A stretch of DNA of 64,000 nt, from assembly GCA_026005175.1 (NCBI GenBank), contig BPKO01000009.1:1-64000 (forward strand). The letters run 5' to 3'. The stretch comes from Candidatus Tectimicrobiota bacterium. Lineage in GTDB: Bacteria; Tectomicrobia; Entotheonellia; Entotheonellales; Entotheonellaceae. The position numbers were made by a program, and so were the translations under genes. The notes beneath the pieces were generated by a model. It did no database searches and had not been told where the DNA came from. It saw nothing but the letters and a program-made list of their open reading frames with translations. Each line of letters begins with the position of its first letter. Position 1 is the first letter of the stretch. Shown piece by piece: positions 6,768 through 40,607 of this stretch.

Positions 6768-7592
6768 ATGGCAGAGGAAGTCTTCCCGCCACGCCTGCGC
6801 GGGCAAGTGGCGGTGATCACCGGGGCGGCGCGCGGTCTGGGCCGCGCCTACGCCTTGCGCCTGGCCCGCCTGGGCGCCGACATCGTCATCAACGACATCA
6901 ACCTCGAAGCGGCGGCCGAGGTGGGAGAGCCCCTGACGGCGCCCACGGTGGTGGAAGAGATTGAACGCCTGGGCCGCCGCGCCCTGGGCATTGCCGCCGA
7001 CGTCACCAGCGAAGCGGCGGTGCAGGCGCTTTTCGATCAGGTCCTGGCGACCTTTGGCCAAGTCGATATCCTCATCAACAACGCCGGCGGGGGGCGCGGC
7101 AGCCGCAGCGTCAGCGAATGCCCGCCGGAGACCTGGGAGGCGGTGGTGGCCAAGAACCTCCGCTCGGCCTACCTGTGCTGTCGCGCCGTGGCGCCGCACA
7201 TGCGGGCGCGGCGGCGCGGCAAAATCATCAACGTCGCTTCGGTGGCCGGCCTTACACCGCTGATGCCCACTCTGGCCCCTTATGCGGTGGCCAAAGCCGG
7301 AGTCATTCAGCTCACCCGGGCACTGGCCCTGGAGCTGGCCCCCTACGGGATCAACGTCAACGCCATTGCTCCCGGCTACGTGGCCACCGTGCACTGGCTG
7401 GGCGGGCTGGGGAAGATCAAGGAGCAGCTGCTGCCGCACATCCCCATGGGACGCCTGGCCCAGCCCGAGGACTGCGCCAAGGTGATCGAGTTTCTGGCCA
7501 CTGACCTCTCGGACTTCGTCACCGGCGAGGTGATTTGCGTCGACGGCGGCATGGCCCACCTCAACCCCTACTACCTGGGGCAGGCCTACTGA
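6768..7592 (+). CDS. Short-chain dehydrogenase/reductase
   Basis: A 274-residue classical SDR. It has the NAD(P)-binding glycine motif TGAARGLGRA (about 19-27), NNAG (104-107), a catalytic Ser158 (NVASVAG) and the Tyr172-x3-Lys176 pair in PYAVAKAG. The acidic ND at the end of beta-strand 2 (VINDIN) suggests NAD rather than NADP preference. The gene begins 14 bases after the ThDP enzyme, with GGGGTG before the ATG, and is almost surely in the same transcript. Its job is probably redox conversion of that enzyme's substrate or product. The 3' end overlaps the convergent FGE-fold gene by seven bases. Confidence 0.88.
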   Translation: MAEEVFPPRLRGQVAVITGAARGLGRAYALRLARLGADIVINDINLEAAAEVGEPLTAPTVVEEIERLGRRALGIAADVTSEAAVQALFDQVLATFGQVDILINNAGGGRGSRSVSECPPETWEAVVAKNLRSAYLCCRAVAPHMRARRRGKIINVASVAGLTPLMPTLAPYAVAKAGVIQLTRALALELAPYGINVNAIAPGYVATVHWLGGLGKIKEQLLPHIPMGRLAQPEDCAKVIEFLATDLSDFVTGEVICVDGGMAHLNPYYLGQAY

Positions 7593-8665
7593 GAAGGGAC
7601 CGGGGCGGCGCAGCGAAAGCCGATGAAGTTGGCGGTGATGCCCGGCAGCAAGACAAAGCGGGCGCCGCACCCCACTTGTGAAGAGGCGCTGGGTCCTGAG
7701 CCGCCGCGCAGCACCACCCCCAGGGTGTCCTCGCGCGTGCTCGTCCACTCGAGGACGTTGCCGGCCAGATCGTGCACGCCGTAGGGGCTCTGCGTTTGGG
7801 GAGCGCTGCCCACCGCTGCCGGTGCCGTGAAGGTGGCCTCGGCCGCTGCCGGCAGCGGCGTGTTGCCCCAGGGGAAGGCGCGGCCGTCGGTGCCGCGGCA
7901 GGCCTTTTCCCACTGCAGCTCGGTGGGAAGCTGCTTCCCTGCCCACTGGCAGTAAGCGGCGGCTTCGTACCAGGAGACGCCGACCACCGGCTGCTCGGGG
8001 GCATTGAAAGCCTCGACTTGCCAGTAGCTGGGCTGGCGGCGCTGCTGCTTTTGCACCCAAGCCCACCCCTCGTCGCTCCACCACTCCCGCGTCGTGTAGC
8101 CCCCGGCCTCGATGAACTGCCGGTACTGCTGGTTGGTCACTTCGTATACGTCGATGGCGAAGGCCTCCAGGGTCACCGTCTGCCCGCTGCCGCGCTTGAA
8201 CGGCCCGGCAGGAATGCGCACCATGGCCCCCAGGCGCACGCCTGCTCGCGTCCCGGGCGGCCAGACCAGATCGTGGTAAGCCAGCAGGGCTTGCTGCTGC
8301 TCGCGCCGCAGCCCTGTCAGGTAGGCCCGGATGTGGGCTGGGGCTTCGGGATAGGGCAGGCAGGAAGCGGTGAGGAGCTGGGGCGGCTGCGCTGCCTCGG
8401 CACGCGGCACGACCAGCAGCCCGTCGGTGCGCGCCAGGTAATAGCGCACAACGATAAACAGCTGGGCGAGCTCAGGGTCAGGCCGCGCGCCCTGAGGTTC
8501 GGCGGCAAGAATCATGGCGTCGAGCAGCGCCGGGTTGAGCACGGCGGCCGGCGCCAAGTCAGCAGCGCAGTCGGGCAGGCCAAAAGGCTGCTCGGCGCCT
8601 GCCACAGCGGCAAAGCAACTGAGGAGCACCATCGCGGTGATCAGCGCCTTGGTCCCACGCGGCAT
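7586..8665 (-). CDS. Secreted FGE-sulfatase (SUMF1) fold protein
   Basis: A 359-residue protein with a signal peptide (TKALITAMVLLSCFAAVAGA), a helical N-terminal region of about 120 residues, and a formylglycine-generating-enzyme fold from about 145 to the end. Hallmarks are GAMVRIPAGPFKRGS, FAIDVYEVTNQQYRQFI, QPVVGVSWYEAAAYCQWAG, LPTELQWEKACRG, AFPWGN, GVHDLAGNVLEWTS and NFIGFRCA. The cysteine pair used by true FGEs in the region after LRGG is not conserved (GSGPSASSQVGCGARF), so it is more likely a binding or structural member of the family than an active sulfatase-maturing oxidase. ATG 8665 has AGGAG eight bases upstream. It is divergent from the efflux pump. Confidence 0.8.
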   Translation of the reverse strand: MPRGTKALITAMVLLSCFAAVAGAEQPFGLPDCAADLAPAAVLNPALLDAMILAAEPQGARPDPELAQLFIVVRYYLARTDGLLVVPRAEAAQPPQLLTASCLPYPEAPAHIRAYLTGLRREQQQALLAYHDLVWPPGTRAGVRLGAMVRIPAGPFKRGSGQTVTLEAFAIDVYEVTNQQYRQFIEAGGYTTREWWSDEGWAWVQKQQRRQPSYWQVEAFNAPEQPVVGVSWYEAAAYCQWAGKQLPTELQWEKACRGTDGRAFPWGNTPLPAAAEATFTAPAAVGSAPQTQSPYGVHDLAGNVLEWTSTREDTLGVVLRGGSGPSASSQVGCGARFVLLPGITANFIGFRCAAPVPSQ

Positions 8666-8743
8666 AAGCGGCTTTCTCCTCTGGGCAACGGTGTAGTATA
8701 GTGCTTGGCAAGACAACACCGGCCACTGCGCGGACACCTCGTT

Positions 8744-36199: not shown

Positions 36200-36994
36200 G
36201 TGGCGGACGAAGCCACATACGCCGCGCCCACGCCGCGGGTGCTGTACATCCATGACGACCTGAGCGACGCCGTTCGCCAGCAGTACGGCCCTGCTTCCCC
36301 GGCAGCGCAGCTTGCCGAGGAACTGCTGCGGCTGGTGCGCCGCGACCCGCAGCGGGTGGTGGTGCTGAGCTTGGCCCAGCAGCTCGAGCTGCTGCTGGCC
36401 CGCGGCGAGCACCCCCCTTTTGCCATGGCCCTGGGCATCGGCGAGGCCGGCGAGCGCGTGGCGCGGCAGCTCCATGCCCACCGCGGCTGGTTTCCCCGCA
36501 TCCGCCGCCTTGACGTGACGCGCGAGGAGGACGGCCGCGGCGGCTATCGCCTGGTGAGCCTTTCTGGCCTTCCCCTGGCGGCCCAAGTGCAAGGGCTGGA
36601 AGCCTACCCGTCGCTGGCAGTGGTGGACGATACCGTCTTTTCCGGCCTCACCCTGCGCACCGTGCTGCAGGCCCTGCCCCCTGCCCTGCGGGCGCGCACC
36701 CACGCCTTTTGCCTGCGGGCAGTGGCCGAGAGCCTACCGGCAATCCGCGCCCTCTGCCCCATCAGCGCCGGATTTGTCGCCCACGGGCGCTTGCTCCACG
36801 ACGTCAGCATGATCAACGCCAGCGGGCTGGTGCGGCGCATTGCCATTCGCCGTGCCGGCCAGCCGCCGCAGGCCTTTTTCGAGCGCCCGGCGTGGATGCA
36901 CGCCTGGTTTCCCGGCCACGCCGAAGACGTCATCGCCCTGTGCCGCCGGCTCAATGCCCTGCTGGAGCCGGCGGCCGGCGCACGAGCGGGATGA
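36200..36994 (+). CDS. Phosphoribosyltransferase-fold hypothetical protein
   Basis: A 264-residue protein with a type I PRTase motif, LAVVDDTVFSGLTLRTVLQAL, in which the two acidic residues and the SGLT turn match the PRPP-binding loop (normally DDxxxTGxT). Upstream is RIRRLDVTREEDGRGGYRLV, resembling the flexible loop. Near the N-terminus is MALGIGEAGERVARQLHAHR. The C-terminal part includes FVAHGRLLHDVSMINASGLV and AWMHAWFPGHAEDV. It may be a diverged PRTase or a regulatory relative. GTG 36200 follows AAGGGA by five bases. The end overlaps the convergent HAD gene by 44 bases. Confidence 0.6.
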   Translation: MADEATYAAPTPRVLYIHDDLSDAVRQQYGPASPAAQLAEELLRLVRRDPQRVVVLSLAQQLELLLARGEHPPFAMALGIGEAGERVARQLHAHRGWFPRIRRLDVTREEDGRGGYRLVSLSGLPLAAQVQGLEAYPSLAVVDDTVFSGLTLRTVLQALPPALRARTHAFCLRAVAESLPAIRALCPISAGFVAHGRLLHDVSMINASGLVRRIAIRRAGQPPQAFFERPAWMHAWFPGHAEDVIALCRRLNALLEPAAGARAG

Positions 36995-37616
36995 GGTCGG
37001 CAAAAGCGGCAAGCCAGTAGTCCGGCCGGGCCTGGCGCAGCGCCTGCAGGTCTCCGAAGCCATACGTGGCGGCGCAGGTGGCCACGCCCGCCGCTTTTCC
37101 CGCCAGGATGTCGGCGGCGGTGTCGCCGACAAGCAGCGCGGCGGCTGGCGGGCAGCGCAGCGCCGCCAGGGCGGCATACACGGTGTCCGGAGCCGGCTTC
37201 AGGCGCAAGCCGGGCTCCCACCCCTGCACGTGACAAAAGAAAGGGGCCAGTTGCAGGCGCTGCAAGACGGCGCGTGCCTGAGCCGTCTCCTTGGTGGTGA
37301 CAACGGCAAAGGCGAGGGGACTAAGCCGCTGCAGGGTTTCGCGCACTCCTGGATAGGGGCGCGTGGCCCTGTCGGCACGCCGTGCCGCCGCCTGGCGGTA
37401 AAAGCGTAAGAAGGCGGCATCCTGTGGCGGTGACAGCGGGTATCCCAGGGCGGCGGCCATCTCCAGCAGCGGCTTGCCGATGTGGCGGGCAATGGCGGCC
37501 GGTGGCGGCAGCGGGCCGGCGACGACGCGGCGCAGGGCCTGGCGAAAGGCAGCGGCAATGTCGACGTGGGCGTCGATGAGGGTGCCGTCAAGGTCACACA
37601 GGATGGCCGTCCACAT
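36951..37616 (-). CDS. HAD-superfamily phosphatase, phosphoglycolate phosphatase-like
   Basis: A 221-residue HAD hydrolase with the helical cap of subfamily IA. Motif I is LCDLDGTLIDAHVDI with both catalytic aspartates, motif II is AFAVVTTKET, the lysine is in LRLKPAPDTVYAAL and motif IV is LLVGDTAADILAGKAAG. It would dephosphorylate a small phosphoester such as phosphoglycolate or a sugar phosphate. It begins 15 bases after the SenB-type gene on the same strand. If the two are functionally linked, it might remove a phosphate from a selenosugar intermediate, but this is speculation. Confidence 0.82.
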   Translation of the reverse strand: MWTAILCDLDGTLIDAHVDIAAAFRQALRRVVAGPLPPPAAIARHIGKPLLEMAAALGYPLSPPQDAAFLRFYRQAAARRADRATRPYPGVRETLQRLSPLAFAVVTTKETAQARAVLQRLQLAPFFCHVQGWEPGLRLKPAPDTVYAALAALRCPPAAALLVGDTAADILAGKAAGVATCAATYGFGDLQALRQARPDYWLAAFADLIPLVRRPPAPAGH

Positions 37617-37631
37617 GGCAAGGCGAGAAAC

Positions 37632-38585
37632 TCAGGGAAGCAGTTCCTGCACCAGCCGCTTCCACGCCTGCTGCTCGTGCAGCGGGTGAACGAGGGGCGC
37701 CAGGCGCTGGCAGTGCTGGCTGAGGGTGTGGTAAAAGCCGGCGTCGTTCTCGACGCGCAGGAGCAGATCCCGCAGCGCCAGGGTGTCTCCCACCGGGAAA
37801 AAGCCGGGGTAGTCCTCGCCCAGGAGTCCCACCGAGCCAGCAATACGCGAGGCCACAATGGGCACGGAAGCGGCCAGAGCTTCGGAAATGGCGTTGGCAC
37901 CGCCTTCCATGGTGGAGGAGAGGACCATAACGCGGCTGCGGGCCAGCACCCGCAGCGCCTGCCAGCGCGGCAGCTCGCCTAGCCAGTGGTAGCGGGGATT
38001 GACCGCCGCTTCGTGGCGAGCGCGCTCCGCCATCTCGTCGCTGAGGGCGCGGCCGACATGCAGCACGCGGATGCGCGAGGTGGCCGGCAGCAGGCGCGCC
38101 GCCAGGGCGGTGCGAAACGGGTCCTTGACGGCACGCAGGTGTCCCAGGACGCAGACGTCGAACGTGCGCTTGGCTTTGGCTGGCGGGTGCCGGGGCGCAG
38201 TGGCCGACTGGTAGATCACCCGTGCTTTGTGGCGCACGTGCGCGGGGAGCTCTTCCAGGCCCTTGGGCTGCAGCAGCACCAGGCGGGTGGCCAGCTCCAG
38301 GGCGTGCTGGGCTTCGGCGCTGTGCTTGAGGTCGCCGTAGAGGTCGGTGCCGGTCAGGGCGACCACCAGCGGCGCCGTGGGGTGCCGCTGGCGAAAGTGG
38401 GCAATGGCGCGGTAGCTGCGGCGGGCGTGCAGGGCGATGAGCAAATCACAGGGTTCCCCCTCATAGCGCTGCGCCAGCGTGACGCGGTGCCCCAGCGCCC
38501 GCAGGATGCGCGCCCAGCGCCGCGCCGTCACCCCGTTGCCCTGGCGCGAGCGATTGGAAACGGGGGTTACCAGGAAAACGGTCAT
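37632..38585 (-). CDS. senB: SenB-type selenosugar synthase (TIGR04348 glycosyltransferase)
   Basis: A 317-residue GT-B protein of the family once called 'TIGR04348 putative glycosyltransferase' and now known from SenB of selenoneine synthesis, which joins selenophosphate-derived selenium to a UDP-sugar. Diagnostic stretches are FLVTPVSNRSRQGNGVTARR, WARILRALGHRVTLAQ, DLLIALHARRSYRAIAHFR, APLVVALTGTDLYGDL, SAEAQHALELATRLVLLQP and VLSSTMEGGANAISEALAA with the donor-site glutamates. ATG 38585 is chosen over an earlier start because AGGCGG precedes it. It is divergent from egtD, which makes the hercynine backbone of selenoneine; SenA and SenC are not in the window. Confidence 0.8.
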   Translation of the reverse strand: MTVFLVTPVSNRSRQGNGVTARRWARILRALGHRVTLAQRYEGEPCDLLIALHARRSYRAIAHFRQRHPTAPLVVALTGTDLYGDLKHSAEAQHALELATRLVLLQPKGLEELPAHVRHKARVIYQSATAPRHPPAKAKRTFDVCVLGHLRAVKDPFRTALAARLLPATSRIRVLHVGRALSDEMAERARHEAAVNPRYHWLGELPRWQALRVLARSRVMVLSSTMEGGANAISEALAASVPIVASRIAGSVGLLGEDYPGFFPVGDTLALRDLLLRVENDAGFYHTLSQHCQRLAPLVHPLHEQQAWKRLVQELLP

Positions 38586-38621
38586 GGTCCGCCTCGCACA
38601 AGGTCCCAAAAATGCTCCTCA

Positions 38622-38650
38622 ACCCTAGCAGGCCGGCCCGGGCGTGTCAA
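38622..38650 (-). promoter_or_regulatory. Promoter for the senB-type gene
   Basis: On the minus strand a perfect TTGACA (38645-38650) is followed after 17 bases by TAGGGT (38622-38627, three of six matches). It ends 37 bases before the senB ATG in the 128-base divergent gap shared with egtD. On the plus strand a TATGAT (38677-38682) about 30 bases before egtD could be its -10, with no good -35. Confidence 0.4.
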
Positions 38651-38713
38651 CTGCCCCCCTTGCGAGCCAAGTCTGCTATGATAAGCCAAAACCCGCCCTC
38701 GTGCAGAAGGAAG

Positions 38714-39709
38714 ATGCCCGTGCCCGAGACCCACGACGGCCGCCTGCAGCTATATGCCACGGCGGTGGAGGCCCAGCACGAAGCCTTTGCCCGCGACGTG
38801 GCCCGCGGCCTCTCCTCGCTGCCCAAGTGGCTGCCGGCCAAGTACTTCTACGACGACGCCGGGTCGCGGCTCTTTGAGCAGATCTGCGCCCTGCCGGAAT
38901 ACTACCTCTACCGCACCGAAAAGGCTATCCTTGCCACCTACGCCGCCGACATCGCGGCTGCCCTCGACTACCTGCCGCTGGTGGAGCTCGGCCCCGGCAA
39001 CGCCTCCAAGACCCAGTACCTGCTTGCCGCTTACGCGCAGCGCGGCCAGCCCTTTTGCTACTGCCCGGTGGACATCTCCCGCACCATGCTGTGCGCCACG
39101 GCGCAGCGCCTCGTGGCCACGTACCCGCAGCTGACGGTGCGGGCGCTGCACGCCGACTTTGCCGCGCAGCCGCAGGCGCTGGCGATCCTCGACTTGCCGC
39201 GCAAGGCCATCGCCTTTCTGGGCTCGAGCCTGGGTAACTTTACCCCTGCCGAGAGCGTGGCGTTTCTGCGCCAGCTCGTCGCCCTCATGCGTCCTGGCGA
39301 CGCCTTCTTGCTGGGGATTGACCTCAAGAAGTCTCCGGCCGTGCTGGTGCCCGCTTACGATGACGCCCAGGGGGTGACGGCGGCCTTCAACCGCAACCTG
39401 CTGGAGCGCATCAACCGCGAGCTGGGAGGCCACTTCGACGTGCGGCGCTTTGCACACGTGGCGCTCTACAACGAGGCAGAGGGCCGCATCGAAATGCACC
39501 TGCGCAGCGACCGCGCCCAGGAAGTGGCGATTGAAGCGCTGGGCCTGACGGTCGCGTTTGCCGAGGGGGAAACCATTCACACCGAGAATTCCTACAAGTA
39601 CACGGCAGAAGAGGTGGCTGCCCTGGGGCAGCAGGCGGGCTTGCGGCTAGAACGCACCTGGTTCGATCCCCGGCGCTTTTTCCTCGTGGCCCTGTTTCGC
39701 CCCTGCTAG
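38714..39709 (+). CDS. egtD: L-histidine N-alpha-methyltransferase
   Basis: A 331-residue EgtD-family enzyme, which trimethylates histidine with three SAM to hercynine, the backbone of ergothioneine and selenoneine. Family marks are WLPAKYFYDDAGSRLFEQIC, LPEYYLYRTEKAIL, the SAM site PLVELGPGNASKTQYLLAAY, PVDISRTML, and FLGSSLGNFTPAESVAFL, whose Asn contacts the histidine substrate. A late ETIHTENSYKYT keeps the Glu-x-Ser pair that binds the histidine amine and imidazole. ATG 38714 follows AAGGAAG. It is divergent from the SenB-type gene and 13 bases upstream of a secreted FGE-fold gene. No EgtB is present. Confidence 0.9.
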   Translation: MPVPETHDGRLQLYATAVEAQHEAFARDVARGLSSLPKWLPAKYFYDDAGSRLFEQICALPEYYLYRTEKAILATYAADIAAALDYLPLVELGPGNASKTQYLLAAYAQRGQPFCYCPVDISRTMLCATAQRLVATYPQLTVRALHADFAAQPQALAILDLPRKAIAFLGSSLGNFTPAESVAFLRQLVALMRPGDAFLLGIDLKKSPAVLVPAYDDAQGVTAAFNRNLLERINRELGGHFDVRRFAHVALYNEAEGRIEMHLRSDRAQEVAIEALGLTVAFAEGETIHTENSYKYTAEEVAALGQQAGLRLERTWFDPRRFFLVALFRPC

Positions 39710-39722
39710 AGGAGCCGCAGGC

Positions 39723-40607
39723 ATGGCAAAACCCTGGCAACGTCGCAGGGGATGTGGGCTGCTGCTTTTCCTTCTCGGGTGGGCCGTCTGGGCAGAAGCG
39801 ACCCAGACCCCCTGCCCGCCCGCCACGCCCACCCCCATGGTGACCATTCCCGCCGGCCCTTTCCTCATGGGCAGCACGCGCGAGGAGCGCGAGTATGGCT
39901 ACCGGCTCGACGAGCTGCGCGGCAGCGCTGTGGCCCGCACCTATCGCTGGTTCGAAAATGAAACGCGCCGCCAGGTGACGCTGCCCGCCTACCGCATCGA
40001 TCGCACGCCGGTAACCAACGCTGCCTATGCCTGCTTCGTGGCCCAGAGCGGCCACCCCCCGCCCTTTGTGAGCGAAGCAGAATGGCGCAGCTACCGGCTC
40101 ATCCACGACTACGCCACGGTGCGCCGCTTTCTCTGGCACGGCAAGGAGCCGCCGCCGGGGCGCGCCCGCCATCCCGTGGTGCTGGTGAGCCACGCCGACG
40201 CGGCCGCCTACTGCGCCTGGCGCGGGCAGGTGGAGGGGCGGCCGCTGCGCTTGCCCACCGAAGAAGAGTGGGAAAAGGCGGCGCGCGGCGCCGACGGCCG
40301 CTACTTCCCCTGGGGCAACACGTTTGACCCGCGCCGCCTCAACAGCGCCGATCTGGGCCCTTATGACACGGTGCCGGTGGGACAGTACCCCCAGGGGCAG
40401 AGCCCGTACGGAGTCCTCGACATGGCCGGGCAGGTGTTCGAGTGGACGCAGACCCTGCTGCGCCCCGATCCTCCAACGTACATCGTCAAAGGCGGCTCCT
40501 GGGACGACCTGCCAGGGGTGACGCGGGCGGCGGCACGCCACGGCCGCCCCGCTTGCCTCAAGCACATCCTCATCGGCTTTCGCTGCGCCGGGCCGCTGGC
40601 GCCCTGA
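39723..40607 (+). CDS. Secreted FGE-sulfatase fold protein downstream of egtD
   Basis: A 294-residue protein with a signal peptide (GCGLLLFLLGWAVWAEA) followed by a complete FGE/SUMF1 fold. It shows MVTIPAGPFLMGSTREER, AYRIDRTPVTNAAYACFV, HPVVLVSHADAAAYCAWRG, LPTEEEWEKAARGADG, YFPWGN, GVLDMAGQVFEWTQ and HILIGFRCAG. The catalytic cysteine pair of true FGE is missing in GGSWDDLPGVTRAAARHG. The ergothioneine and selenoneine sulfoxide/selenium enzymes EgtB and SenA share this fold but need an N-terminal DinB domain whose histidines bind iron; that domain is absent and a signal peptide is present, so this is neither. The 13-base gap to egtD implies co-expression. Function unknown. Confidence 0.75.
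   Translation: MAKPWQRRRGCGLLLFLLGWAVWAEATQTPCPPATPTPMVTIPAGPFLMGSTREEREYGYRLDELRGSAVARTYRWFENETRRQVTLPAYRIDRTPVTNAAYACFVAQSGHPPPFVSEAEWRSYRLIHDYATVRRFLWHGKEPPPGRARHPVVLVSHADAAAYCAWRGQVEGRPLRLPTEEEWEKAARGADGRYFPWGNTFDPRRLNSADLGPYDTVPVGQYPQGQSPYGVLDMAGQVFEWTQTLLRPDPPTYIVKGGSWDDLPGVTRAAARHGRPACLKHILIGFRCAGPLAP

Follow-up and report, generated by a model that had tools for sequence, protein, structure and literature searches.

A probable selenoneine pathway encoded by dispersed genes, including a frame-interrupted senA, in Candidatus Tectimicrobiota

The selenoneine (sen) pathway of Variovorax paradoxus consists of SenC/SelD, SenB and SenA (Kayrouz et al., 2022, as summarised in PMC9814287 and PMC10702425). 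In a genome of Candidatus Tectimicrobiota (G000), a senB gene lies head to head with egtD, and an earlier note on this DNA left two readings of the pair: a local cluster that is incomplete, SenA being encoded elsewhere, or a variant route that uses another enzyme for the joining step. Which of these readings holds is the question addressed here. The window, the whole 64,000-nucleotide stretch analyzed, is part of contig C9, and G000 as a whole comprises 14 contigs and 3.99 Mb. Because the assembly is rated as only 77% complete, with 3.55% contamination, absences from G000 are weak evidence, while presences are unaffected. The phylum sample was five genomes (G000-G004), to which a phylum-wide survey added none; G003 is from the same family as G000 but a different genus. 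The features of the locus are as follows.

36951-37616, minus strand: HAD-family phosphatase (PpaX/phosphoglycolate-phosphatase-like; PF13419)
37632-38585, minus strand: senB, selenosugar synthase (Se-glycosyltransferase; TIGR04348)
38586-38713, no strand: senB/egtD intergenic gap of 128 bases, candidate site of both promoters
38714-39709, plus strand: egtD, histidine N-alpha-trimethyltransferase (hercynine-forming; TIGR03438, PF10017)
39723-40607, plus strand: FGE-fold protein, apparent signal peptide, no DinB domain (PF03781)

The divergent senB and egtD genes

The assignment of the 37632-38585(-) product to SenB, made previously from the sequence, was upheld by profile search, which did not place the protein outside this family: it scored 420.5 bits against TIGR04348 over model positions 1-310 of 310, 120 bits above the curated cut-off of 300 bits. 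The protein also matched the solved SenB structures 8jjn, 8fbx and 8k5u (E 1e-55 to 1e-62). Structural and mutational work on V. paradoxus SenB has tied ten positions to catalysis or substrate binding, with K158 being catalytic, N20, T23 and E231 sugar-selecting, and H58, R61, T83, T85 and R155 part of the SeP pocket (PMC10891094). The window SenB is identical to V. paradoxus SenB at 10/10 of these positions (N20, T23, H58, R61, T83, T85, D86, R155, K158 and E231) and, by analogy, is predicted to make a selenosugar from selenophosphate and a UDP-sugar.

The divergent gene likewise proved to be egtD with its histidine-site residues, as had been proposed. The 38714-39709(+) product scored 378 bits against TIGR03438 (cut-off 290.9) and 375 bits against PF10017, matched solved EgtD with an E value of 1e-71, and in the alignment keeps the histidine-site motifs PEYY, GN(F/L)TP, AYDD and TExS. 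An alternative in-frame start upstream of 38714 is possible. With respect to the suggestion that the two genes share a 128-base promoter region, the gap and the divergent layout are as described and the gap may hold both promoters, but a single shared promoter region is unproven, with no sigma-70-like site found in the gap. An Rfam scan of the window gave no matches.

selD and an interrupted senA outside the window

SelD/SenC, SenA and EgtB had all been reported as missing, which is true of the window for SenA and EgtB and of the surroundings of the senB-egtD pair for SelD/SenC, but the first two enzymes are encoded elsewhere in the genome. SelD was found on C9, the contig that includes the window, at a distance of 82 kb (C9:120631-121554; 378.9 bits, cut-off 125). 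The selD gene carries an in-frame TGA (Sec) in the active-site motif CAGUASK, and selenocysteine at this position is supported by the presence of a tRNA-Sec gene on contig C3 (76.5 bits, cut-off 47). A cystathionine gamma-synthase/lyase-family gene comes immediately after selD in the same orientation (L028:9140-10465(-)); its product might act on selenium amino acids.

For senA, profile search of the genome contigs identified two abutting frames at C10:44463-45783. Positions 5-312 of the SenA model (NF041186, cut-off 420 bits) correspond to C10:44502-45446 with 401.5 bits, and positions 310-382 to C10:45553-45771, in a different frame, with 109.9 bits. Thus, the gene is interrupted by one frame change and each piece singly falls under the cut-off, a point against the selenoneine reading; the intact SenA of G003 scored 486.9 bits. 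The two pieces are 71% and about 77% identical to the G003 protein, and near L027:9440-9480 the G+C-rich third-codon pattern passes into the second frame, where it remains strong up to the gene end. Given this identity and the continuation of the third-codon pattern past the break, the far part of senA has not decayed, and the frame break most likely reflects either an error in the assembly or a mutation of very recent date. The protein keeps the iron motif HEDMHGE (DinB-type HxxxHxE) as well as the PYxxYSxPWF motif common to SenA rows, and the C-terminal piece alone passes TIGR04373, the SenA-type C-terminal signature (81 bits, cut-off 71). Since the nearest neighbours of SenA in G000 are those of its SenB, G003 and a SAR324 metagenome-assembled genome (MAG), C10 and C9 plausibly come from one organism.

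No EgtB exceeded 360 bits in a profile search across the G000 contigs (77% of the genome by the completeness rating), in agreement with the earlier view; the best match, at 261 bits, is the SenA gene itself. SenA is consequently the only visible partner of EgtD, and we rejected the idea that EgtD serves an EgtB. Given a 14-contig assembly with this completeness and contamination, it is nonetheless conceivable that an EgtB was missed or that a contig was mis-binned.

Four pathway genes are therefore present in G000, with SenB, EgtD and SelD above curated cut-offs and catalytic residues kept, and it is highly likely that SelD, SenB, EgtD and SenA together constitute a complete but dispersed selenoneine pathway. 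Of the two readings, the genome bears out the first, a locally incomplete cluster, with SenA on C10 and SelD 82 kb off on C9; the variant route was rejected because SenA is present in the genome, so that no other joining enzyme is needed. By analogy with the characterised V. paradoxus pathway, from which both the reactions and the product are taken, SelD, itself a selenoprotein, would supply selenophosphate, which SenB would combine with a UDP-sugar, splitting off phosphate, to give the selenosugar. EgtD would trimethylate histidine to hercynine, and SenA would then join selenosugar and hercynine oxidatively, the resulting selenoxide falling apart to yield selenoneine.

Alternative products and partners

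We consider it unlikely that this pathway ends elsewhere, either because the OvsA-near, EgtD-linked SenA subgroup yields some selenium compound that is not selenoneine, or because SenA has been lost and selenosugar and hercynine are used separately. The second of these possibilities, in which SenA is a true pseudogene and the two precursors either stay separate or depend on another enzyme to be combined, would fit the frame break in the G000 assembly and a genome search that yielded neither another SenA nor an EgtB of full length. We regard it as improbable, as the far part is ~77% identical to intact SenA and retains a coding third-position pattern, such that any loss must be very recent, and both SenB and EgtD are intact.

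Somewhat further from expectation is a different selenium product, such as an ovoselenol-like compound with selenium at another ring position, from the SenA subgroup formed by G000, G003 and SAR324. The solved structure nearest by sequence to SenA of the G000 lineage is OvsA (ovoselenol synthase, PDB 8ux5), with 338 bits versus 219 for V. paradoxus SenA, the subgroup is joined weakly to OvsA in the tree (80/86), and FFYE replaces the WFQE of most SenAs. Nevertheless, the subgroup passes TIGR04373, which is failed by OvsA (56.7 of the required 71) and by true EgtB (32.4), the PYxxYSxPWF motif kept in the subgroup is absent from OvsA, and EgtD, the hercynine source, co-occurs in 3/3 genomes (G000, G003 and SAR324). 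The C-terminal signature and motif thus disfavour OvsA rather than SenA as the identity of the C10 gene despite the pairwise score and the tree, and we consider an ovoselenol-like product quite improbable. From these sequence features, we assign selenoneine as the product of the SenA lineage with good but not full confidence.

The two neighbours of the pair are arranged as the earlier note described, a HAD phosphatase after senB and an apparently secreted FGE-fold protein after egtD (36951-37616 and 39723-40607). The HAD gene starts 15 bases past the senB stop and may be, indeed probably is, co-transcribed with senB. Its product matches PF13419 with 100.7 bits, and the best NCBIfam match, PpaX, is at 120 bits, under the cut-off of 218. 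The FGE-fold protein has PF03781 (164.6 bits) as its only domain and CalU17 as its best solved match (E 3e-33). It scores 71 bits on both the SenA and EgtB models (cut-offs 420 and 360), and neither a DinB domain nor an HxxxHxE motif was found in it. No counterparts of either protein were detected at 36 other senB loci. Moreover, a separate phosphatase is not required, since cleavage of the Se-P bond is carried out by SenB, by means of K158 (PMC10891094), a lysine that is kept here. A role for the HAD phosphatase as a pathway enzyme was rejected on the basis of this cleavage and the lack of a conserved link to senB, and the FGE-fold protein was rejected as a SenA substitute for want of the DinB domain and iron motif; the former probably lies outside the selenoneine pathway and the latter is probably unrelated to it. 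That one of these neighbours replaces SenA in a variant pathway supplied by the senB-egtD pair, a reading suggested by adjacency alone, is scarcely credible with an FGE-fold protein that is apparently secreted and has neither DinB domain nor HxxxHxE, with neither neighbour beside other senB genes, and with SenA encoded elsewhere. The window also encodes a second FGE-fold protein, at 7589-8722(-), that is apparently secreted and without a DinB domain (PF03781, 164 bits).

Gene order in relatives and SenB in other bacteria

Profile search of the five phylum genomes revealed co-occurrence of SenA, SenB and EgtD in G000 and G003. The trio is absent from G001, G002 and G004, including two nearly complete relatives; low-scoring SenA-model matches in G001 and G002 are FGE-fold proteins that lack a match to the model's N-terminal part. 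In G003, the nearest relative carrying the pathway, senA and senB lie side by side on contig C155, with the senB start just past the senA stop and followed by cysD and cysN, whereas egtD is on C43, apart from senB. The G003 egtD gene is also divergent from a glycosyltransferase gene, 75 bases away (L087:8884-10233(+)), which is of the GT4 type and not SenB.

At most of 35 named senB loci, senA is within reach of senB. Proximity of senB to egtD, not seen in G003, was found at two named loci from distant genomes, in bacterium HR33 (L050) and Polynucleobacter hallstattensis (L064), so that the refuting condition set by the earlier note, a senB never near egtD in relatives, does not hold for these two. 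Both differ from G000 in that senA belongs to the cluster: the HR33 order is senA-senB-MFS-egtD-egtB, and the Polynucleobacter cluster has senB and egtD tail to tail and then selD and senA. In the SAR324 MAG, senB and senA are on separate contigs of 220,519 and 231,312 bases, respectively; scattering of the two genes is therefore not unique to G000.

Compared with the V. paradoxus pathway, G000 has all of the enzyme classes, the SenB catalytic residues, and the SenA iron motif and C-terminal signature. In contrast to the single V. paradoxus sen cluster, the G000 genes are on C9, at two places 82 kb apart, and C10, an ordinary Sec-containing SelD takes the place of the dedicated SenC, and senB and egtD are paired head to head. 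The characterised pathway is typically clustered, but its chemistry does not need this. A local rearrangement, in which the precursor genes would have been kept together after senA moved away, seems to underlie the divergent senB-egtD pair.

We also noted SenBs in genomes with a different complement of partners. Eight closely related Planctomycetota MAGs (L040, L042-L047 and L056) encode SenBs that form one clade (100/100), score about 401-403 bits on the model (two members scanned) and keep 9/10 of the tested residues, including the catalytic lysine; as in G003, K replaces R61. No SenA or EgtB-type protein (E 1e-40) and no EgtD (E 1e-30) was found in any of the eight genomes (0/8), while SelD is present in 7/8, within a long open frame (750-880 aa). 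In the 17 remaining genomes, a SenA/EgtB-type match was obtained in 14 and EgtD in 12 (Fisher p 0.00015 and 0.0016, respectively, versus the eight Planctomycetota, values that ignore that the eight are one clade). This pattern suggests that in the Planctomycetota clade the selenosugar is an end product or is used by another joining enzyme. In several of the clade's loci, a PhyH-type dioxygenase gene follows senB. Two further cases were observed. A Sulfuricella MAG (L053, genome G018) has a SenB of 429.5 bits, with EgtD and an EgtB-type enzyme on another contig; no SenA above cut-off was found in this MAG, which may reflect its incompleteness. A SenB-family protein of Gemmataceae (L048, 9330-10352) scores above cut-off, at 353 bits, but N20, H58, T85 and E231 are changed, and it may use another substrate.

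Collectively, these results extend dedicated selenium small-molecule biosynthesis, at the strength given above, to a phylum sparsely sampled by five genomes. The Planctomycetota with SenB and SelD and without SenA or EgtD are a better lead for another selenium end product than the window is. A scattered pathway of this kind implies that surveys relying on clustering of senA, senB and selD miss producers and may miscall orphan SenBs.
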